Below are positions 6,625 to 25,275 of a stretch of DNA of 64,000 bases, piece after piece. Source of the stretch: Bifidobacterium phasiani. GTDB taxonomy: Bacteria > Actinomycetota > Actinomycetes > Actinomycetales > Bifidobacteriaceae. Both the position numbers and the translations under genes were made by a program. Position 1 is the stretch's first letter. Every line of letters starts with the position of its first letter. The stretch spans positions 1-64,000 of the forward strand of contig NZ_JAHBBD010000008.1 in the NCBI RefSeq assembly GCF_019331775.1. Reading direction: 5' to 3'. The notes beneath the pieces are model-generated. The model had not been told where the DNA came from, searched no databases, and saw nothing but the letters and a program-made list of their open reading frames with translations.

Positions 6625-8346
6625 TTATTCCTCCTTGTTGGTTGGTTGCGGATTCACCACGCGCGGGATCGTGGTGGCTTCAGGGGACGATTTGGCCACG
6701 CGGGGCCGGCGCGCCGGGGCGCCGGCGTCGGCGGGTTCCCTCTTCGGGGCGTCGGCGCGCTCCGTGCCGGCATGCCGGGAATCGACGCGGCGCGGGGTGC
6801 GGCGCGCGCCGCCGTCGTGCGGGGCGTCGCCGCGGGAACCATCGTCACGGCGCTGGGCCGGATCGCCGGCTCCCGCGTCCCGTGGCTCGACGCGGCGTGA
6901 ATCCACGCGGCGCGAACGCTTTCGGGAGACGGCGTCGTGGGCGTCGCCGCTGCGTGGTTCGGTGTCGCGGGACTTGACGTTGCGGGACTCGGTATCGCGG
7001 GACTCGGTATCGCCGTGGGCGTCGCCGCGGACCCCGGCATCGTGGGGCGCGGCGTCATGGACGGCGCTTATGACGACGGTGTCGTCGCCGGCCTGTGCGG
7101 GGCCGGCCTGCGCGGCGGCGCGGCGGCGCATCAGCCAGCGCACGCCGTACACCGTCGCGGCCGCGACGGCGACGAGCAGCCAGGCCATGAACAGTCCCAG
7201 CACGATCGGACGGATGACCGTGCGCGTCGAAACCATCACGTCGACGCCGACATGGGCGAGCCGGTCGAAGCCGAGCGAGCCGTTCGACACGGTGAACAGC
7301 AGCGTGAACGCCACCGACAGCAGCGCGCCGGACAGGCAGAACGCCAGCGCGGGCCGGACGAATTCGAGGATGCGACGGAGCGCATCCGGCCCGTCGTCGG
7401 GCGAGCCGGCGCGGATGCCGAAACCCCGCCCGGCGAGCATCGCCGCCAGCCCGCACGCCAGTCCGAGCGCGATCGGGGCGATCATCAGCGCGATGCGGAT
7501 GGCGTCGTTGCCCACGGGCGCCGGGAACAGCCCGAACACCGGCACCGGCGGCAGATCGGCGGACTGCCCGACCCACAGGCTGAAGTCGGCGAGCTCGCCG
7601 ATGGCGAAGCCGCCGCCGAACAGCCAGGAGACCGCCCAGATGCAGACGTTGGGCAGCCAGATGGCGCAGAACACCGTGGTCAGGACGCGTGACCCGGTCT
7701 GCATGCCGGACATCGCGAACACCTCGGCCACGGCCCTCCAGTCCAGCACGGCCCAGACGACGACCGTGACCAGGCCGCAGACCAGATAGACGAGCGCGAC
7801 GACGGCCGCCGTCAGCACGCCGATGCGCACGGTGCGCCGCGCCTCGGCGCCGACGTGGCCTCGGTACCAGTCCAGGGCGAGGCTCGTCAGCGGCGAGCGG
7901 CCCAGCGCCGCCAGGGCGAATCCGACGCTGAACACGAGCGCGCATTTGGCCAGGATCAGCCACAGATCGTCGACGAACGCGAACGCGACGCCCTGCCTGA
8001 GCAGCAGGTTGAGCACCAGCCACGAGGCCAGGCCGGTCAGATAGGCGCGCCAGCCGCAGCCCAGGCGCAGCGCCAGTGACCGGACGACGCCGATCAGCAG
8101 CACGGTCAGCAGCAGCGGAACGATGGTCAGTCGCACGGATCCGATCTCGAATCCGGCGCCCTGGCTGAGCAGCACGACGGCCTCGGTGACCGGCACGGAC
8201 AGCTCGGAGATGTTGTCGCCGCCCTCCTCCATCGCGATGACCAGCAGCATCAGGGAGATGAACAGCCCGAGGGCGACCGAGTACAGCACGAGGGCCACCG
8301 CCGACAGCAGCGGCCCCTTGAGCCAGTCCTTGAGATGCGGGGTCAT
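6625..8346 (-). CDS. DUF6350-like polytopic membrane protein with repeat-rich tail
   Basis: A 573-residue membrane protein with roughly ten hydrophobic segments in residues 15-390, then a hydrophilic tail of about 180 residues rich in Arg, Asp, Ala and Ser. The position between sucD and purH is the actinobacterial location of DUF6350 proteins (once called PerM-like), which is the basis of the name; no function is established from sequence. The tail is encoded partly by four tandem 15-base units at 6952-7011 that give five-residue repeats of the DTESR type. Start and sucD stop overlap as ATGA, so translation is probably coupled. Confidence 0.7.
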
Positions 8347-9269
8347 GACGCGGCGAGTCCGGACAGTACGTCCCTCATGATGGCCGCGGTCTGGCCGGGC
8401 GTGCGGCCCACGCGGATGCCGACCGCCTCCAGGGCGTCCTTCTTGTCCTGGGCGGTGCCCTTGCCTCCGGACACGATGGCGCCCGCGTGCCCCATCTGCT
8501 TGCCCTCCGGCGCGGTGAAGCCGGCGATGTACGCGACGACCGGCTTGGTCATGTGCTCGGACGCCCAGCGGGCGGCCTCCTGCTCGGCGGAACCGCCGAT
8601 CTCGCCGATCATGACGACGGCCTTGGTGTCGTCGTCGGCCTCGAAGGCCTCAAGCGCCTCCTGCAGCGTCGTGCCGACGATGGGATCGCCGCCGGCGCCC
8701 AGGCACGCGGTGAAGCCGATGTCGGACAGCTCCCCCATGAGCTGGTAGGTCAGGGTTCCGGACTTGGAGACCAGGCCGAGCGGGCCCCGGCGCACGATGC
8801 CGTCGGGGATGATGCCCAGGTTGACGCCGTGCCCGCCGGGCTCGGCCGGCAGCGTCAGCAGGCCCGGGCAGTTCGGGCCGACGATGCGCACGCCACGCCG
8901 CATCGCCAGCTCGACGAAGTACGCCGTGTCGGCGACCGGGATGCCCTCGGTGATGACGACGATCAGCTCGATGCCGGCCTCGACCGCCTCGACGACCGCG
9001 TCCTTGGCGAACCTCGGCGGGACGAACACGACGCTGGCCTTGGCTCCGGTGGCCGCCTTGGCGTCGCCGCAGGTCGCGTAGACCGGGATCGGTGCGTCGG
9101 CGCCCTCGCGTGCCCCCTCGAACACGACGCTGGTACCGGCCTTGCGCGGGTTGACGCCGCCGACGATGTTGGTGCCGGCCCTGAGCATGCGCGCGGTGTG
9201 GGTCATGCCCTGGTGCCCGGTCATGCCCTGGACGATGACCGGGGCGCCCTCCTCGATGAATGCCGTCAT
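8343..9269 (-). CDS. sucD: Succinyl-CoA synthetase alpha subunit
   Basis: A 308-residue ADP- or GDP-forming succinate-CoA ligase alpha subunit. It has a CoA-binding N-terminal Rossmann part ([15 protein letters not shown] near residue 12, [10 protein letters not shown]) and the phosphohistidine region near the C-terminus ([15 protein letters not shown]), in which the His is the phosphorylated residue. The start ATG at 9269 overlaps the sucC stop as ATGA and excludes the much longer upstream frame, which only shadows sucC. Bifidobacteria lack a full citric acid cycle, so the pair may work as an isolated succinate/succinyl-CoA converter; that role is inference. Confidence 0.95.
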
Positions 9270-10462
9270 GCACGGGCCTCCTTGGCTTCGGCGGCGAGGC
9301 GGGCGGCCAGCTGCGCGGCCTGCTCCATCGTCTCGCACACATGGACGTTGGGATTGCTGGATGCGGCCAGGATCCGCAGACCCTCGGCGGCGGCGTTGCC
9401 GTCGAAGCGCACGACGAGCGGCTTGGCGCCGCCGAGCTCGTCGAGGGCCTCGAGGATGCCGCGGGCCACCTGCTCGCAGGAGGTGATGCCGCCGTAGACG
9501 TTGATGAACACCGACTCGACCTGCGGGTCGGAGAGCACGATCTCCAGGCTGTGGCGCATGACCTCGACCGAGGCGCCGCCGCCGATGTCGAGGAAGTTCG
9601 CCGGCCTGACGCCGGTGCCCTGCTCCTCGCCGGCGCCGGAGACCGCGTCGAGCGAGCTCATGACCAGGCCCGCGCCGTTGCCGATGACGCCGACCTCGCC
9701 GTGCAGATGCACGTAGTGCAGGCCGTGCTCGCTGGCCTGCCGCTCGAACGGGTCTGCCTGGACCGGGTCGTCGAAGCGCGCCCAACCGTCGTGGCGGAAC
9801 GCGGCGTTGCCGTCCAGGGAGATCTTCGCGTCCAGCGCGCACAGCGACTTCGAGGACTCGTCGTCGGGGTCGCCGATCTTGGCCAGCGGGTTGATCTCCA
9901 CCAGCGTGGCGTCGTTGTCTCGGAAGCAATGCCACATTTTGAGCAGGATCTGCGCGGCCTGCTCGACGTCCGCGTGGTAGAAGCCGATGCTTTCGGCCAT
10001 GCGGCGGGCGGCGTCGATGTCGAACTCCCCCAGCGCCCCGATGTGCAGGCGCTTGACGGCCTCGGGATGCTCCCGGGCGATCTGCTCGACCTCGGTGCCG
10101 CCGTTGGCCGTGGCCAGCACGTCGAAGTCGCGCGAGGAGCGGTCCACGGAGATCGAGACGTAGTATTCGTGCAGGATGTTCTTGGCCTCGGCCACCAGCA
10201 CGCCGCTGACCTTGTGGCCGTGGATGGTCATCGGCAGGATGCGCTCGGCCTCGAGGATCGCCTCGTCGCGGTCGTGTACCAGCTTGACGCCGCCCGCCTG
10301 GCCGCGGTGGCCGATCTTCACCTGCGCCTTGATGACGCAGGGGTAGCCGATGCGGTCGGCGGCCTGCGCCACCTCATGCGAATTCTGAGCGAATATGGCG
10401 TCCGGCGTGGGAATGCCCTGCTCGGCGAGCAGCTCCCTGGCCTGGTATTCGTATAGGTCCAT
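9266..10462 (-). CDS. sucC: Succinyl-CoA synthetase beta subunit
   Basis: A 398-residue beta subunit with the N-terminal ATP-grasp fold starting [20 protein letters not shown]. It continues with [47 protein letters not shown] and FLDIGGGAS, which are the standard nucleotide-binding and alpha-contact motifs. Length is typical. The ATG at 10462 is preceded by a G-rich GGGGG site. It is first of the coupled set sucC-sucD-DUF6350. Confidence 0.95.
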
Positions 10463-10523
10463 TGGCCTTACCCCCTGAATTGCGATGGTTGTTGTGCCGA
10501 TGCTGCGCCGATGGCCCGGCCGG

Positions 10524-11108
10524 TCAGGCCGGCATGGTGACCAGCGTGCTCAGCGGGTAGTCGGACAGCAGGGCCGTGCCCTGCAGGCCCTCGAGCTCCA
10601 TGACGAAGCTGAATCCGGCCACCTCGCCGCCGCACTTCTCGATCAGGTCCGCCGCGGCCTTGGCCGTGCCGCCGGTGGCGATCAGGTCGTCGACGACCAG
10701 CACGCGCTGGCCCGGCGCGACGGCGTCGGTCTCGATCTCGATCGTGGCCTGCCCGTATTCGAGCGTGTAGCTCTCCCCCACGGTCTGCGGCGGCAGCTTG
10801 CCGGCCTTGCGCACCGCGACGAAGCCCTTGCCGAGGCGGGCCGCCAGCGCCGGGCCGAACAGGAAGCCGCGGGCCTCCAGCCCCGCCACCAGGTCGAACC
10901 GGTCGGCGGGGACCGGAAGCGCGGCCTCGAGCGCACGGATCAGGATGTCCAGCCCCCGCGCGTCGGCCAGCACCGGCATGAAGTCGCGGAAGATGATCCC
11001 CTCCTTGGGGAACCCCGGAATCGAACGGATCAGGGACACCACATGCGCGGCGTCCTCATCCCCCACCAGATCCAATTTGCTGATACGAATATCGGACTGT
11101 GCCGTCAT
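10524..11108 (-). CDS. apt: Adenine phosphoribosyltransferase
   Basis: A 194-residue enzyme that joins adenine to PRPP to give AMP (purine salvage, cytoplasm). Motifs seen are IRSIPGFPKEGIIFRD near the N-terminus and the PRPP-binding VLVVDDLIATGGTAKAA. GLEARGFLFG lies in the flexible-loop region. The ATG at 11108 leaves about 15 residues before the conserved core; its ribosome site (AAAGG) is weak and distant, so the start is the least certain part. It lies between yajC and sucC with small gaps and is probably co-transcribed with yajC. Confidence 0.9.
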   Translation of the reverse strand: MTAQSDIRISKLDLVGDEDAAHVVSLIRSIPGFPKEGIIFRDFMPVLADARGLDILIRALEAALPVPADRFDLVAGLEARGFLFGPALAARLGKGFVAVRKAGKLPPQTVGESYTLEYGQATIEIETDAVAPGQRVLVVDDLIATGGTAKAAADLIEKCGGEVAGFSFVMELEGLQGTALLSDYPLSTLVTMPA

Positions 11109-11161
11109 ACGCTGCGCCTGTGCCTTTCTCTCGTGCCGCCGTGGGTCCCGCCGGTCCGCCG

Positions 11162-11617
11162 TTACTTCCGCTGGTCGTCGGCCTCGGCCGCGTCCACGGC
11201 TGCGGCCTCGACGACGGTCTCGGTCTCGACGTCCCCGGTCTCGACGATCTGGGACGACTCGATGACCGCCTGGTCGACGGGAACCTGCGCCTCGTCGTCC
11301 TCGTCCTGCGGCAGCGGGTTGCCGTCCTCGTCCACCTCGTCGTCGTGCACGTAGGCCGGACGGGTGTACTCGCGGCTGATGGCGTTGAATCCGAAGCGCA
11401 TCAGCGAGCCCTCGGAGTCGATGACGATCTCCTCGTACTCGGCATCGACGGACACGACCTTGCCGATGACGCCGCCGATCGTGATGATCTCGGTGCCCGG
11501 CTGCAGGTTCTCCCGGAAGTCCTTGCGCTCCTGCTGCTGCTGCTTCGCCTTGCGCGACTGCCACCACATCATGGCGATCAGGGCAACGAGAACGACGATC
11601 ATGATCACAATATCCAC
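11162..11617 (-). CDS. yajC: Preprotein translocase accessory subunit YajC
   Basis: A 151-residue protein with a single N-terminal membrane helix (residues 2-18), then QSRKAKQQQQERKDF and the LQPGTEIITIGGVIGKVV signature of YajC, partner of SecDF at the translocon. The C-terminal 60 residues are a long acidic tail (DDEVDEDGNPLPQDEDDEA) beyond the usual short YajC. The start is GTG at 11617 with AAGGAG eight bases before it. It follows ruvB in the same direction, as in many bacteria where yajC neighbours the ruv genes or secD. Confidence 0.9.
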   Translation of the reverse strand: MDIVIMIVVLVALIAMMWWQSRKAKQQQQERKDFRENLQPGTEIITIGGVIGKVVSVDAEYEEIVIDSEGSLMRFGFNAISREYTRPAYVHDDEVDEDGNPLPQDEDDEAQVPVDQAVIESSQIVETGDVETETVVEAAAVDAAEADDQRK

Positions 11618-14763: not shown

Positions 14764-14841
14764 AATGCTCCTCGCAGTAGACGGATGGTATGCAAACGAA
14801 ACGATTGTAAGGCGGTTCGCTGACAAAGCGCGGATTTCGCA

Positions 14842-15585
14842 TCAGAAGAAACCGTCGGGCGCCCCCGTGCGCGCGGCCATGCGGACGAATGCCGGGCGCA
14901 GGTCCCGCCGCCGCCAGCGGATCGTGACGGCGCCCGCGAAGGCCGTCGCGGCAACGGCCGTCCACAGTGGCGCGCGCTCGGGCGCGACGATCACGGTCAG
15001 CGGGGATATCGCGGCGATCTGCGGCCATGATCCCGCCAGCACGGCGGCCGCATACATGACACAGGCGATTACCGTGCCCGACAGCCCGCCGAAGATGGTC
15101 GTGGAGGCGATGGCGATCGCCGCGTACAGCAGGCCGATTCCCCACTCCCCCATGATCGTCCGCCCGTCGAGCGATTCCGCCAGACATCCCGGGCGGACAC
15201 AATACAGGTCGAACCTCGGCACGACATGGCCGGGCGCCAGCGCCAACGCCAGATGCGTGAGCGCGGCCGTCGACGCCGCGCACCCTCCCATCAGCGCGAC
15301 GAAGACCGCGTCGAAGGCGCGTGGACGCCGTACGGCCATGTCGTCGGCATCGGGGTTGGCCGGCGAGCACAGGGCGACGACGCCGATGGCCGTCAGCGGC
15401 GGCACCACGGTGCCCGTCCCCAACGGCAGGCTGGCATGCCCTCCCAGCAGGTACGTGTCGAAGGCGACGTCCCACCCCAGATAGCAGGCGACGGCCGCAA
15501 TCGCCAGCGCCAGCGCGGCGGCCCCGGCGCGACGTCCGAGCAGGAACAGCCGGATGTCCGTCATCGCGGCGCACACGCCCGTCAT
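14842..15585 (-). CDS. Uncharacterised membrane protein of the secreted-protein/ABC cassette
   Basis: A 247-residue protein with about six hydrophobic segments and no recognised motif. I take the ATG at 15585, which overlaps the preceding permease stop as ATGA and so implies coupled translation. It is last of four tightly joined genes: secreted protein, ABC ATPase, large permease, this protein. The best guess is a second membrane subunit of the same ABC transporter; it could also be an immunity-type protein. It has no strong similarity that I can name. Confidence 0.6.
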   Translation of the reverse strand: MTGVCAAMTDIRLFLLGRRAGAAALALAIAAVACYLGWDVAFDTYLLGGHASLPLGTGTVVPPLTAIGVVALCSPANPDADDMAVRRPRAFDAVFVALMGGCAASTAALTHLALALAPGHVVPRFDLYCVRPGCLAESLDGRTIMGEWGIGLLYAAIAIASTTIFGGLSGTVIACVMYAAAVLAGSWPQIAAISPLTVIVAPERAPLWTAVAATAFAGAVTIRWRRRDLRPAFVRMAARTGAPDGFF

Positions 15586-16934
15586 GGCAACGCCTCCGGC
15601 GTGACCGTGCAACTCAGTATGGCCTGACGGTTCCGCATATACCAATCTGCAAAACGCTCGTCGTCCAAGGCCGCCAGCCGGCTCCGCCGCGGATCCGGAA
15701 CCACGTCGCCCGTCGTCTCGTCGATGCCGAACGGGGTCGCCTCCCCTCCCGACCGGGTGCTCAGCTCGTCGCGCACCAGCCGAATGACCGCGGTGGGGGC
15801 GTCATCGCCGACGGGGCCGTCATACCGGGGGCAGGCATCGTACCCGGCGAACCTCGCCAACAGGCCCTCGCGTACCGACTCGTCGACGCTCTCCGCATCC
15901 GCCCGTCCGGACGGGGCTCCGACGATGACGGCGCCGGTGTCGTTCGCCGCGGCCACCGGGGATTCGACCAGCCGGATCGGTTCGTCCCAGCCGGTCAGTT
16001 CCACGAACCGGCCGGATAGTTCGAATGCCCGCCGCCGGATTGACTCGTCCGCGGGGTGGAGGCATACGGTGATGGTTCCGTCGACGTCCGTGGTGCATCG
16101 TGCGTTCGCCTGGTCGGGTTCCACCAGGGTGACCGGATGAATGACCACCGCGATGACCGCGATCGCGGCGATGGTCGATCCGCACCATATGCCGGGGACG
16201 TTCCGGATCCGGCGCCCGGCCACGTGCGCTCGCGCCGCCTCGTACGCGACGGACGCGACGATCAGATACAGCGCGATGCGCAGTACGTTCGCCTGCCACG
16301 TGACGAGCCAGCCGGGTTCCGGAAACTCGTTGAACCATACCAGGGCGGGCGCGAGGATCGAGGAACGGTTCGCCAGCACGGTGTAATTGAGCGCCAACGG
16401 GAGCCATGCGGCGGCCAACACCACACCGACCGCCACAAGCGTGACCCGGCGCTTCGGCATGATGACGCCGAACCACACCGAGACCGCGCCGACCATCACC
16501 AGTCCGGCGACCGCAGCGCAGAGGGTCAGCAGATCGATGAAACCGAACGTGGCCCGCGCCGCCGTGCATATGCACAACGGCATCAGCCCGGCCAGATATC
16601 CCAAGACCGCAACGACGGCGGTGACGCGCATGACATGGCCGACCATCCGGACGATGCCGCGCGCCGGGAGTCTGCCGATGACGACGTTATCCGGACGGAG
16701 CGCCCAAGCCCACACCGTCGCGGATGCGGCGATAAGCAGCGATGGCAGAACGACGGATTCCCTGCAGGCGACGGCGAACGACGACCATCGCGGCACCGAC
16801 GCGGTCAGGTAGCCGAACGTCTGCGCCAGGGTCGCGAACATGACGGCGACGGCGGCGAGCAGTCTGCCTGTGACGGAAGGCCAGACGGCGTCTTGCGGCG
16901 TATGTCCCGGGGCTGCGAGGGATGCCGTCGTCAT
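15582..16934 (-). CDS. ABC transporter permease-like protein with large extracytoplasmic domain
   Basis: A 450-residue protein with about seven hydrophobic segments up to residue 280, followed by a soluble C-terminal domain of about 165 residues that is presumably outside the membrane. That domain opens with a cysteine pair and a CLHPADES stretch (CTTDVDGTITVCLHP), which I recall from actinobacterial ABC-2-type permeases with an exported domain. It sits directly after an ABC ATPase, with start and stop overlapping as ATGA, so the two very likely form one transporter. The substrate is not known; the adjacent secreted protein is an obvious candidate partner. Confidence 0.65.
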   Translation of the reverse strand: MTTASLAAPGHTPQDAVWPSVTGRLLAAVAVMFATLAQTFGYLTASVPRWSSFAVACRESVVLPSLLIAASATVWAWALRPDNVVIGRLPARGIVRMVGHVMRVTAVVAVLGYLAGLMPLCICTAARATFGFIDLLTLCAAVAGLVMVGAVSVWFGVIMPKRRVTLVAVGVVLAAAWLPLALNYTVLANRSSILAPALVWFNEFPEPGWLVTWQANVLRIALYLIVASVAYEAARAHVAGRRIRNVPGIWCGSTIAAIAVIAVVIHPVTLVEPDQANARCTTDVDGTITVCLHPADESIRRRAFELSGRFVELTGWDEPIRLVESPVAAANDTGAVIVGAPSGRADAESVDESVREGLLARFAGYDACPRYDGPVGDDAPTAVIRLVRDELSTRSGGEATPFGIDETTGDVVPDPRRSRLAALDDERFADWYMRNRQAILSCTVTPEALP

Positions 16935-17695
16935 AGGTGCTCCTTGAGAAATCGTTCGATGTCGGCGACGGCGGGTGCGGATCCCGGAACACTCGACAAC
17001 CGGTCGGGCGTCTCGTCGAAGACCAGCCGTCCGGCGGACAGGATGAGCAGATGATCGGCGTGCGTGACGGATTCGTCGATGACATGGGTGCTGAACAGCA
17101 CTGCCGCCGAGGTCGCGATCCGTCGCAGACCCTCACGGATCCGCGCACGATGCAGCGGGTCGAGCCCCGCCATCGGCTCATCCAGCAGCAGGATCGAAGG
17201 CCGGTGGGCCGTTGCGCAGGCGAGCGCAAGGCGGTGGCGCTGCCCTCCCGACAGCGACCGCGCCCTGCGCGTGCGTTCCCGGGACAGGCCCACCACGTCG
17301 ATGGCTCGCGTCGCCGCGCCGTCGACGTCCCCGGACGGCACGCCGTGCGCCCAGGCGGCGTAGCGGACGTTGTCGAACACGGTGGCGGATTCCAGCAACG
17401 TGAACCGCTGCGGCAGATACCCAAGCGATCCCAGGACGGCGTCACGCCCCGCGGGCGACAACGCGTCGTGACCGTCGAGCGACACGGATCCCGCGTCGGG
17501 GAGCCGCAGCGTGGCCAGCACCTGCATCAACGTCGTCTTGCCGGCCCCGTTGACGCCCAATAGGGCGGCCGATCCACGGCCGAGCCGGAACGACACCCGC
17601 GACAGCGCCGTGGCGCCGTTCCGGCAGCGGACCGTCAGGTTCCCGCACTCGACGCACGGAGGGCGAGACGGACGGGATGGCTTGCCGTCAATCAA
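16931..17695 (-). CDS. ABC transporter ATP-binding protein
   Basis: A 254-residue ATPase of the ABC-2/CcmA type. It has Walker A GVNGAGKT (47-54), Q loop (YLPQRFTL), signature LSGGQ (148-152), Walker B LLLDEP (169-174) and switch His in FSTHVIDE. The chosen start is a TTG at 17695 that overlaps the stop of the secreted-protein gene as TTGA, mirroring the ATGA joints downstream; no better start with a ribosome site is seen. An N-terminal stretch VECGNLTVRCRNG carries two Cys. Together with the next two genes it forms an ABC system whose direction (export or detoxification) cannot be told from sequence. Confidence 0.85.
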   Translation of the reverse strand: MIDGKPSRPSRPPCVECGNLTVRCRNGATALSRVSFRLGRGSAALLGVNGAGKTTLMQVLATLRLPDAGSVSLDGHDALSPAGRDAVLGSLGYLPQRFTLLESATVFDNVRYAAWAHGVPSGDVDGAATRAIDVVGLSRERTRRARSLSGGQRHRLALACATAHRPSILLLDEPMAGLDPLHRARIREGLRRIATSAAVLFSTHVIDESVTHADHLLILSAGRLVFDETPDRLSSVPGSAPAVADIERFLKEHL

Positions 17696-18075
17696 AACGT
17701 CAGCCTATCCGAATGAAAGACCGCGCCGTCATCGGTTTGTGTCTGAGTGAAATAGACATGGCCGGTTGTTCCCCATATGCTGAGTTCCCTTGTTTCATTG
17801 GCTGCTGAGAACGAAATTCTGGATAGTTCCTGATCTGGCCACATGGCAATATGTCGCCGAGCTTGAACTGTGACATTTTTTGCTGTAGAGCATCCTTGCC
17901 TGCCACCTTGGAAGATGGCATAGTTACCATCTTTCCATACGTTGGCCACCAACGCGCAGGCGCGCGGAGATGGCTCTTCCTCGGCTGATGCCGTAGGTGT
18001 TGTCATTGCTAGACCCATGAGCAATGAGGTGGTCGCCAGCATGGCGATTGTACTCTTTCTTGCGGAGATCATCAT
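17692..18075 (-). CDS. Small secreted cysteine-containing protein
   Basis: A 127-residue precursor with a clear Sec signal peptide (basic MMISARK, hydrophobic 9-24, TASA cleavage near 31). The mature part is about 96 residues with two cysteines (in RACALVAN and QGCSTAKN) likely forming a disulfide. A stretch VTVQARRHIAMWPDQEL is followed by Thr/Phe-rich beta-strand-like sequence ending DRLTF. The layout Cys-VTVxxRRxxxxWPD resembles small exported actinobacterial beta-sandwich proteins as I remember them; it is not an obvious lactococcin 972. Base composition is clearly less GC-rich than all neighbours. It heads a coupled operon with an ABC system and is divergent from a two-component system. 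Confidence 0.7.
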   Translation of the reverse strand: MMISARKSTIAMLATTSLLMGLAMTTPTASAEEEPSPRACALVANVWKDGNYAIFQGGRQGCSTAKNVTVQARRHIAMWPDQELSRISFSAANETRELSIWGTTGHVYFTQTQTDDGAVFHSDRLTF

Positions 18076-18143
18076 TGTTTCTTCCGGAGGTGTATTGGGA
18101 CGATGCCATCATCGGGCTTGGCCGCGGAGCCGGTCAAGACCGT

Positions 18144-18160
18144 GCCGTGGGAGCCACGGC
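18144..18160. promoter_or_regulatory. Candidate operator between divergent units
   Basis: GCCGTGG-GAG-CCACGGC is a perfect 7-base inverted repeat with a 3-base spacer, midway in the 126-base region between the secreted-protein gene and the response-regulator gene. It is a plausible dimer site for the NarL-type regulator; no experimental support exists. Confidence 0.4.
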
Positions 18161-18201
18161 AACGCTTCCCGCGCATGCGACGGGTCCGGTAGAGTGATGC
18201 C

Positions 18202-18897
18202 ATGGGAGAAGCAGCAGGGGGAACCATACGCCTCGCCGTCGTGGACAACGATCCGTACTCGTTGCGTGGCCTGACGGCGGTCATCGGCCGCATGAGGGAA
18301 TGCACGGTGCTGTGGCGGACCGAGCTGGGTACCGATGCGCTGCGCCGGTGCATGGACCCGAAAACTGCTTCGTTGGACGTGATGATCGTCGACATGTCGT
18401 TGGACGACATCTCCGGCATCGAGGTATGCAGGCGGGTCAGGCGGCGATGCCCCGGCATCGGGCTGGTCGGGGTCACGGCGTACTCCCCGGAGCGGTTCCT
18501 CTCCGATGCCGCGGCCTGCGGCATGCAGACGCTGATCGAGAAAAGGCACGTGTTCGAGCGGTTGCCGCAGGCGATCAGACTCGCCGCGCAAGGCAGGGCC
18601 ATGCAGACCGATGCGGCGGAAGGATACGGAATCCGCTTCCCGGATGTGGACGGGTGTGTCGGCCAGGATGTTCGGACCGCCGGATTCGAGGCGGAGGATA
18701 TCCCGCAGCGGCTGTCCTCGCGGGAGATGCAGACCATGAGGTGCTACGCCCAAGGCTGCTCCACGGACGAGGTCGCCGCGAATCTTGGGGTGAACGCTAC
18801 CACCGTGTATTCGTATCAGAAACGAGCACTGAACAAGCTGCACGCCCGCACGCTTCCGCAGGCGGTGTGCATGCTCGCCAAAAAGGGGCTGCTATGA
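18202..18897 (+). CDS. NarL/FixJ-type response regulator
   Basis: A 231-residue regulator. The receiver domain has acidic pocket Asp residues in VVDND (13-17), phospho-acceptor Asp64 in MIVDMS, a Thr in GVTAYS and Lys in LIEKRH. A LuxR-type helix-turn-helix starts at LSSREMQTMRCYAQG and includes TDEVAANLGVNATTVYSYQKRALNKL. The ATG at 18202 lacks a strong ribosome site; TAGAGT near 18190 could be a -10 box. The stop overlaps the histidine kinase start as ATGA. It most likely controls the divergent secreted-protein/ABC operon. Confidence 0.85.
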   Translation: MGEAAGGTIRLAVVDNDPYSLRGLTAVIGRMRECTVLWRTELGTDALRRCMDPKTASLDVMIVDMSLDDISGIEVCRRVRRRCPGIGLVGVTAYSPERFLSDAAACGMQTLIEKRHVFERLPQAIRLAAQGRAMQTDAAEGYGIRFPDVDGCVGQDVRTAGFEAEDIPQRLSSREMQTMRCYAQGCSTDEVAANLGVNATTVYSYQKRALNKLHARTLPQAVCMLAKKGLL

Positions 18898-20123
18898 GGG
18901 GGATCGTCGGCCTGCTGCCGGCGGCACGATGGTTCGGCTGCGCGGCGGTGGTCGTCGGTCTGCTGGGTCTCGCGCAGGTCATGACCATCGCGACGGGCAG
19001 CGTGGCGGTGGAGACGCTTCCCACGGCGACCAGCGTCGCGTTCTGTCTGATCGTCATGGCCATGTCGTTCTCGTCGACGGTCGCGCCCTGGGGCGTGGTG
19101 CTGCTGTGGTCGCTCGCCGACATCGCCACCGTGGTCCACAGCGGGGTCGTGCAGTGGGTTCCGTCGACCTGCATGACCGCCGTCGCACTCGCGGCCGGCC
19201 GGCTCGCCTATCGGCGCGCATGGTGCGGTGCGCTCGCGGCATGCGTTCCCACGGTTTCCGCGACGCTGCTGACCGCGGGACAGGGGGCTTCGCTCATCTG
19301 GACGGTGTCCACGTTGCTGCAGAACGCCGCATGGTACGGTGCCGCGGCGGGCGTCGGCATGCTGCTCGCCCGGTACCGTGCGCTGCTGCGGGCGGAGCGG
19401 CGTCGCAAAACCCAGGCCATGCGGGAGGAGATCATGATCCGGTTGCACGACTCGGTAGCCAACGACCTGTCCTACGCCGCCGCGTTGCTGCAGCGGGCGC
19501 AGACCTCGGACGGGGAGGTGAACGATGCGATGACCGATGCCGGATCGGCCGTGCACCACGCACTGGAGCGGACCCGCGACGCCATCGAATGGCTGCAGAC
19601 GGCGGAGGATGGGCGGTCCGACGACGGCGATGACGGGACCGCGACCCGGGGCGTGTCCGGGCGGCGTGACGGGGCCGGTTCCATTCGCACCGTCATGGCC
19701 GTCGGCGACGAAAGGCTTTCGGGCCTGGGGTTCATCGGGCAGTCCGTGCTGCTCTGCGATGACGGGGATTGTCCCGATGACCGGGATGCCGCGTTCCTGG
19801 TGCCGTTCCTACGCGAGCTGTATGGGAACATAGCCGGGCACGCCGATCCGAAGGGCGGGTATGCGGTATCGCTGGCATGCGGCCCGGCTTTGTATCGGGT
19901 GTGCGTATCGGACGAGGCGGCGCGGCGTGACGGAGCCGGCGAAGGCCGCCGCGGCGACGGGAAACCGCACCGTCACGGGTTCGGTCTGGAACGGTACCGC
20001 CGGCGGATCGAATCGGTCGGCGGAACGTTCCGGGTCGACCGGAGCGACGGCGTGTGGACGATGCTCGCCGTCATTCCGCGCGCATCTGCCGGCGCACCTC
20101 GAGGATGCGCTGGACGACGGTGA
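18894..20123 (+). CDS. Sensor histidine kinase (NarL-partner, HisKA_3 type)
   Basis: A 409-residue membrane kinase with five or six hydrophobic segments (12-160) and no large extracellular sensor domain. The dimerisation helix has IRLHDSVANDLSYAA with His185 as the likely phosphate acceptor. The ATPase part is short and divergent, with the N-box region RELYGNIAGHA and a G-box HGFGLERYRRR. An Asp/Gly-rich insert separates the two. It overlaps the response regulator by four bases and the convergent pgsA gene by 53 bases. A sensor buried in the membrane and located next to an ABC transporter fits sensing of envelope or peptide stress, which is inference. Confidence 0.8.
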   Translation: MRGIVGLLPAARWFGCAAVVVGLLGLAQVMTIATGSVAVETLPTATSVAFCLIVMAMSFSSTVAPWGVVLLWSLADIATVVHSGVVQWVPSTCMTAVALAAGRLAYRRAWCGALAACVPTVSATLLTAGQGASLIWTVSTLLQNAAWYGAAAGVGMLLARYRALLRAERRRKTQAMREEIMIRLHDSVANDLSYAAALLQRAQTSDGEVNDAMTDAGSAVHHALERTRDAIEWLQTAEDGRSDDGDDGTATRGVSGRRDGAGSIRTVMAVGDERLSGLGFIGQSVLLCDDGDCPDDRDAAFLVPFLRELYGNIAGHADPKGGYAVSLACGPALYRVCVSDEAARRDGAGEGRRGDGKPHRHGFGLERYRRRIESVGGTFRVDRSDGVWTMLAVIPRASAGAPRGCAGRR

Positions 20124-24654: not shown

Positions 24655-24729
24655 TGGTGGGCGATACAAGATTCGAACTTGTGACCCCTTCCGTGTCAGG
24701 GAAGTGCGCTACCACTGCGCCAACCGCCC
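24655..24729 (-). tRNA. tRNA-Val(GAC), copy 1
   Basis: The minus strand gives acceptor GGGCGGT with its partner, anticodon stem CTTCC/GGAAG and loop CTGACAC (anticodon GAC), T arm AGTTCGAATCT and an encoded CCA end. It is the last gene of the six-tRNA cluster. Confidence 0.95.
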
Positions 24730-24775
24730 GGTCGCATGAAAAAACCGCCACGCCACCTGGCATGACGGCCAATCA

Positions 24776-24851
24776 TGGAGCGGACAACGGGACTCGAACC
24801 CGCGGTCTCAACCTTGGCAAGGTTGCGCTTTACCAACTAAGCTATGTCCGC
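24776..24851 (-). tRNA. tRNA-Gly(GCC), copy 1
   Basis: Acceptor GCGGACA pairs with TGTCCGC. The anticodon stem is CAACC/GGTTG with loop TTGCCAA, giving GCC. CCA is encoded. The body is identical to the copy at 25203-25275. Confidence 0.95.
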
Positions 24852-24882
24852 AAAGAATCCCACCGTGAGAAGCAGGACTCCG

Positions 24883-24955
24883 TGGGTGATGTAGGAATCG
24901 AACCTACGACCCCTTCCGTGTGAAGGAAGTGCGCTAGCCGCTGCGCCAATCACCC
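24883..24955 (-). tRNA. tRNA-Val(CAC)
   Basis: Acceptor GGGTGAT, anticodon stem CTTCC/GGAAG with loop TTCACAC giving CAC, T arm GGTTCGATTCC. CCA is not encoded. Confidence 0.95.
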
Positions 24956-24990
24956 ATATTCATTTATATATAACGGAGCGAACTCCGTAG

Positions 24991-25062
24991 TGGGCGATAC
25001 AAGATTCGAACTTGTGACCCCTTCCGTGTCAGGGAAGTGCGCTACCACTGCGCCAACCGCCC
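24991..25062 (-). tRNA. tRNA-Val(GAC), copy 2
   Basis: The 72-base body is the same as tRNA-Val(GAC) copy 1, anticodon GAC, but without an encoded CCA. Confidence 0.95.
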
Positions 25063-25102
25063 GGGTCTGCGTCTCCTCGGCGGATTCGCATCCGCTCCGG
25101 AG

Positions 25103-25173
25103 AGGTGGGTACGAGAGTCGAACTCGTCTATACGGCTTTGCAGGCCGCTGCCTAACCGCTTGGCTAACCCACC
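25103..25173 (-). tRNA. tRNA-Cys(GCA)
   Basis: Acceptor GGTGGGT pairs with ACCCACC. The anticodon loop CTGCAAA gives GCA. T arm AGTTCGACTCT. CCA is not encoded. Confidence 0.95.
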
Positions 25174-25202
25174 GTAAAGGTCGTCAACTCTTCGGACCTT
25201 AG

Positions 25203-25275
25203 AGCGGACAACGGGACTCGAACCCGCGGTCTCAACCTTGGCAAGGTTGCGCTTTACCAACTAAGCTATGTCCGC
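25203..25275 (-). tRNA. tRNA-Gly(GCC), copy 2
   Basis: First gene of the cluster in the direction of transcription, identical in its body to copy 1, anticodon GCC, CCA not encoded. Confidence 0.95.

Follow-up and report, generated by a model that had tools for sequence, protein, structure and literature searches.

Positions 14842 to 20123 of the window (the whole 64,000-nucleotide stretch of Bifidobacterium phasiani DNA that was analyzed) contain a real, mobile and regulated gene cassette that is undescribed in the resources we searched. The explanation that we consider best, to which we assign a probability of roughly 0.45, is that this cassette encodes a Sec-exported, envelope-acting, bacteriocin-like effector and an ABC self-protection pump under the control of a two-component system. 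All six genes listed in the initial annotation are intact at the positions it gave, and every reading frame is open. The minus strand carries a small secreted protein of 127 aa (17692 to 18075), an ABC ATPase of 254 aa with a TTG start (16931 to 17695), a permease of 450 aa (15582 to 16934), and a 247-aa multipass membrane protein, mem3 (14842 to 15585). Read the other way, on the plus strand, are a NarL/LuxR-type response regulator of 231 aa (18202 to 18897) and a histidine kinase of 409 aa (18894 to 20123). The 4-base start/stop overlaps that had been reported are all present (TTGA, ATGA, and ATGA on the small gene/ABC side and ATGA between regulator and kinase). The description of the cassette as previously undescribed also holds, in that it is a real unit and the small protein falls outside the Pfam and NCBIfam families. 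A tblastn search of a plasmid collection gave no match, and no account of the cassette was found in published papers, although the coverage was mostly without subscription journals and this is hence weak evidence of novelty.

The small protein has, as had been claimed, the features of an exported protein. Sequence inspection identifies a predicted Sec signal peptide at residues 1 to 31 (17983 to 18075, minus strand; predicted cleavage between TASA and EEE), and the mature protein of ~96 aa and 10.7 kDa contains two cysteines, Cys40 and Cys62. Structure prediction gives a single 7-strand beta-domain with a pLDDT of ~98 over residues 41 to 127, which a Cys40-Cys62 disulfide probably pins. None of 9 family members matched a Pfam or NCBIfam family at an E value of ≤1, a PDB sequence search gave no match, and Foldseek returned nothing below an E value of 0.001 for the predicted model. 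The VIA matches of this model (Z up to 9.1; CsgH, RsgI4, RbmA, and Ig-like domains) reflect a common beta arrangement and were not used to assign a function. The small gene has a dN/dS of ~0.25 in the closest comparable pair, which is purifying selection of an ordinary kind, and its product does not outpace the permease in evolutionary rate, so arms-race diversification is unsupported. In several high-GC hosts, the base composition of the small gene differs from that of its partners, with a GC3 of 51% versus 83 to 88% here and 34% versus 79 to 85% in B. vespertilionis. We rejected the idea that low GC3 marks the small gene in general, since it is not anomalous at four other loci.

The ATPase matches PF00005 at 5.2e-27 and carries a subfamily mark, GYLPQxF...NVxYAAWAHG, that is seen in the alignment of cassette ATPases. 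Neither the permease nor mem3 has a family match in Pfam or NCBIfam. The AlphaFold2 model of the permease (mean pLDDT, 83.7) has no Foldseek match below an E value of 0.001, and the best VIA match of its ABC-2-like membrane core is NosY (Z of 15.3 and rmsd of 3.6 over 216 residues, with 12% identity). Together, the PF00005 match and the NosY-like core of the 450-aa permease predict an ABC-2 exporter with a dedicated ATPase. By hydropathy, mem3 is a candidate for a second ABC permease, and nearly every cassette has an orthologue of it. The initial annotation was right that the permease has an extracytoplasmic domain, which lies beyond the last membrane helix (the last hydrophobic segment is 245 to 274), but it gave the length as 165 residues; AlphaFold2 segments, hydropathy, and invariant columns place the domain at residues ~266 to 450 (15585 to 16139, minus strand), which is about 185 residues. 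W200, Cys280, Cys291, Cys368, and Cys442 are invariant in 21 relatives, and all four of these cysteines are within the outer domain, in which we infer two disulfides.

Across the genus, the presence of these genes is patchy: 10 of 112 genomes match the small protein at an E value of ≤0.01 (the weakest of these matches are probably due to chance), and a related permease is found in 8 of the 112. The expected linkage was borne out in this neighborhood survey, since true small-protein matches have the cassette genes as neighbors. How these genes are arranged varies while the set is kept; in B. vespertilionis the two-component genes are followed by the ATPase and the permease, and the small gene and mem3 stand together. 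A scan of genome contigs that used only the small protein as query detected no relatives, but a cassette-ATPase segment was effective and reached loci in Bifidobacterium, Gardnerella, Boudabousia, Kytococcus, Trueperella, Arachnia, and Propionicimonas. Many of the lower ATPase-segment matches, in Chloroflexota and elsewhere, belong to unrelated ABC loci that lack the cassette permeases, and these were rejected. Class-wide, the permease was detected in 14 of 395 genomes, many of which encode a secreted member of the small-protein family immediately ahead of the ATPase, and all 8 small-protein matches better than 1e-29 adjoin a cassette ATPase. The unit of small gene, ATPase, permease, and mem3 recurs across the Actinomycetota. 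Small-protein distances correlate with permease distances more closely than with ATPase distances (Mantel r of 0.76 versus 0.47 at 12 loci), which is suggestive of co-divergence of the small protein and the permease in a set of 12 loci that includes one tight subgroup.

In the two nearest genomes, the gap between pgsA and yebC is only 192 bp and 156 bp, respectively. Homology to both stops at position 20083 and resumes at 14840, and the 5,242 bp between (14841 to 20082, from the alignment) are present only here. This block contains mem3, the permease, the ATPase, the small gene, the regulator, and the kinase minus its last ~41 bp, the kinase frame ending ~41 bp inside sequence that is common with the empty site. 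The block represents either a gain here or a single loss in the common ancestor of the two relatives. Homologous genes are adjacent in many other genomes, the closest comparable pair is under purifying selection, and the block as a whole is missing at this site in the two nearest genomes; the neighborhood is therefore not due to chance.

The regulator matches PF00072 (1.3e-13, 51.5 bits) and PF00196 (4.9e-13, 48.9 bits), both above the Pfam cutoffs, and thus has the receiver and LuxR-type helix-turn-helix of a NarL-type protein. The kinase match to HisKA_3 (1.6e-4, 22.6 bits) is below the cutoff of 24, and an H-box, LHDSVAND, was found by inspection; hydropathy indicates N-terminal membrane segments without a large outer sensor domain. 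Within the intergenic region between the small gene and the regulator gene is the perfect palindrome TGCCGTGGGAGCCACGGCA (TGCCGT-N7-ACGGCA; 18143 to 18161, with no strand assigned), which we propose as the regulator binding site. It is directly upstream of a sigma-70-like promoter candidate for the small-protein operon, TTGACC-18-GATGAT (18108 to 18137, minus strand), which is a consensus match only and faces the small gene (1 found versus 0.0 expected in shuffles). The position of the palindrome relative to this candidate resembles that of an activator site. Of 3 exact copies in the 2.7-Mb genome, 2 are at cassettes, namely, the one described here and one in the intergenic region of a second cassette (C34:3444). 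Exact copies are also found at cassette promoter regions in B. moraviense (2 copies) and B. tissieri (1 copy), and B. vespertilionis has the palindrome twice at such regions, with one mismatch each. Overall, the palindrome is found exactly 5 times within 1,057 bp, and none of 3,000 shuffles produced a copy. The motif was first spotted in two of the tested regions, and the independent support for it is the B. moraviense, B. tissieri, and B. vespertilionis copies. The third exact copy in this genome (C29:12073) is inside a kinase-like gene and a one-mismatch copy (C29:15362) is inside an MFS-like gene, and both were discounted as support. With one mismatch allowed, the palindrome is not enriched genome-wide (15 copies versus 26 in the reversed control), and for this reason only exact or promoter-placed copies were used. 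The palindrome is missing in four cassettes that have more distant regulators. The proposal that the two-component system controls the unit is supported by the common palindromic putative operator and by the presence of all of these genes at one site as a single block.

The second cassette of this genome (C34:543-5417) comprises an ATPase, a permease, mem3, a divergent two-component system, and the same palindrome, and it has no small gene. Contig C29, which is 19 kb, carries a low-GC regulator/kinase pair (~7870 to 11550) that is distant kin of the cassette two-component system and is divergent from an MFS-like transporter. The kinase gene of this pair contains an exact palindrome, and resolvase-like and ParA-like open reading frames are also present on the contig.

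If the cassette is a horizontally mobile, bacteriocin-like system, the 127-aa protein would be exported by Sec, cleaved, and folded outside the cell into a small beta-domain, which would bind a cell-envelope component of susceptible neighbors. The ATPase and the two ABC-2 permeases would clear the protein from the producer's own membrane, which would be self-immunity, and the disulfide-rich outer domain of the permease would contact the small protein or its envelope target. The kinase would sense the small protein or damage, and the NarL-type regulator would bind TGCCGT-N7-ACGGCA, which is just upstream of the candidate −35 element for the operon of the small protein and the ABC genes and also precedes the regulator gene. 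In this scheme, it is the killing, the envelope target, the immunity role, and the input to the kinase that we infer.

The closest parallel is the lactococcin 972 type of bacteriocin, which is a beta-sandwich that binds lipid II and is made without a dedicated transporter (PMC11796350). In the streptococcin B operon of this type (scbABC), as in the cassette, a small protein without a dedicated exporter is encoded with an ABC ATPase and a membrane protein, and the latter two are presumed to confer immunity (PMC11796350). By analogy, the predicted beta-domain of the small protein parallels the beta-sandwich type; the solved lactococcin 972 structure was not among the matches listed for the 7-strand model. 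The cassette differs in that the ATPase gene is second, there are two permeases, the mature domain is ~96 residues with conserved cysteines, and some bifidobacteria have a two-component system and an operator. The 9 family members had no match to the lactococcin 972 family model (PF09683, NCBIfam) at an E value of ≤1, and although the ATPase is there, neither permease matches a Pfam or NCBIfam membrane family, so a membrane partner of the lactococcin 972 type was not found. A PF09683 search of 19 relative genomes gave no match either, but the controls were likewise silent, so it adds nothing. The cassette may work like a lactococcin 972 system, yet by sequence it falls outside that family.

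A scripted tally of 54 cassette loci, which were picked by similarity and are a nonrandom set, found 22 with an intact small gene (21 full-length by profile and 1 full-length by tblastn with a nonstandard start) and 32 that keep the ABC genes without one (9 with fragments and 23 with none). In Gardnerella, the small gene is reduced to a 5′ or 3′ portion at six loci and is whole at one (L069); the ABC genes remain. In the B. asteroides group, the small gene is whole in two loci and is replaced by unrelated sequence in five, with conserved flanks. In B. commune (L046, 5311 to 7854), the small gene and the permease gene are both split by frame changes, and this cassette may be decaying or may reflect misassembly or sequencing error. 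The small protein therefore is not an obligate part of the transporter. The initial annotation had held that its proposal would fail if most genomes retaining the ABC genes had lost the small gene or carried it frameshifted, or if the protein belonged to a well-known family with an unrelated function. By bare count the former is the case (32 of 54), while no such family was found. This count does not discriminate, since streptococcin B loci likewise keep scbBC without scbA: 27.5% of 571 pneumococcal genomes have scbBC without the bacteriocin gene (PMC11796350). Loss of the small gene with the ABC genes kept would, by this analogy, be the pattern of a bacteriocin that is lost while its immunity is retained, with the caveat that in no lactococcin 972 locus have the functions of B and C been proven (PMC11796350). 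A bacteriocin with its immunity would account for the secretion, the co-mobility, the persistence of the pump where the small gene is gone, and the likeness to streptococcin B.

Other small-gene and secreted-gene arrangements were also observed. Two loci have other secreted small open reading frames directly before a related ATPase (L152, 3582 to 4022, and L114, 5136 to 5684) that match neither small-protein profile and are possible further effector types; both loci are among the 23 without a small gene. One genome (G080) has an orphan truncated small gene (L013, 9446 to 9691) in a 19.5-kb stretch with no cassette ABC genes.

The main alternative, which we regard as less likely, is an envelope-stress or antimicrobial-resistance module. 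The two-component system and the ABC-2 pump would then deal with foreign compounds that act on the envelope, by expelling or detoxifying them, and the small protein would be a secreted helper, and not a weapon, that captures the compound or shields an envelope target. The second cassette here and cassettes of B. callitrichos, B. moraviense, and B. tissieri have ABC and two-component genes and no small gene, several of them with the same putative operator, and co-divergence with the permease would suit a partner protein too. A helper, however, is not expected to be lost as often as in this tally while the pump is kept, and the mobility of the block and the odd composition of the small gene suit a weapon better.

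The same alternative gains from the occurrence of the domain outside the cassette. The weaker class-level matches of the small protein are the N-terminal domain of secreted CAP proteins of other actinobacteria (five proteins), and HMM E values of 1e-17 to 1e-9 and an hhalign probability of 97.1% indicate that the two are homologous. These differ from the small protein in being single fused proteins with a C-terminal CAP domain (PF00188, confirmed at 6.6e-26) and without ABC neighbors; none of the cassette ABC genes is within ~1.5 kb of a CAP fusion. Two of the fusions have an S13 D-Ala-D-Ala carboxypeptidase as their neighbor. This hints that the domain binds a ligand in the envelope, which favors an envelope-acting bacteriocin-like effector as well. 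The domain is therefore not always a weapon, and what appears from sequence to be a conserved, housekeeping-like use of it, with no ABC neighbor, would count against a bacteriocin-like role.

A further alternative, which we consider improbable, is that the ABC unit acts in the manner of NosDFY and serves to export the small protein or a different molecule, or to assemble it into the envelope, with no killing or immunity. The alignment of the permease core with NosY favors this, as does NosDFY serving a periplasmic protein partner, going by the title of PDB entry 7qba. A common fold demonstrates no function, however; the outer domain (266 to 450) is uncovered by the matches, and copper or nitrous-oxide genes are absent nearby. 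Export of the small protein by the ABC unit, which the initial annotation had offered as one possibility, is needless because the protein carries a predicted signal peptide for Sec, and at the 32 loci noted above the ABC genes remain with no intact small gene. The cassette also resembles the lantibiotic immunity exporters of the LanFEG type, which have one ATPase and two small ABC-2 permeases and often a two-component system, and its ATPase matches TIGR03740 at 3.4e-28. That match is 98.8 bits, far under the equivalog cutoff of 309.75, and the cassette differs in having no lanthipeptide enzymes and in the 185-residue outer domain of one permease. Similarly doubtful is that the small protein is chiefly a signal that the kinase reads to sense population or stress, the ABC unit being the regulated output. 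Although in this genome and in B. vespertilionis the small gene and the two-component genes diverge around a single putative operator, most cassettes with a small gene have no two-component system nearby (five loci are examples) and two-component cassettes without a small gene persist.

We tentatively extend the bacteriocin-like explanation, at somewhat short of even odds, to an unnamed class across the Actinomycetota, in which Sec-secreted beta-domain bacteriocins derived from the CAP front-end domain would be accompanied by ABC-2 immunity exporters with a disulfide-bonded recognition domain and, in bifidobacteria, by two-component control via TGCCGT-N7-ACGGCA. If true, bifidobacteria, Gardnerella, and many other actinobacteria would have an unrecognized class of secreted antibacterials along with a corresponding pump for self-protection. 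This would matter for how gut and vaginal bacteria compete and would offer a new protein scaffold against the Gram-positive envelope. Even if the small protein is not a weapon, the two unnamed protein families, their linkage, and the predicted operator stand, and the question is directly testable. Elsewhere in the window, positions 24655 to 25275 contain six tRNA genes (Val, Gly, Val, Val, Cys, and Gly), including two Val copies with identical anticodons and two Gly copies.
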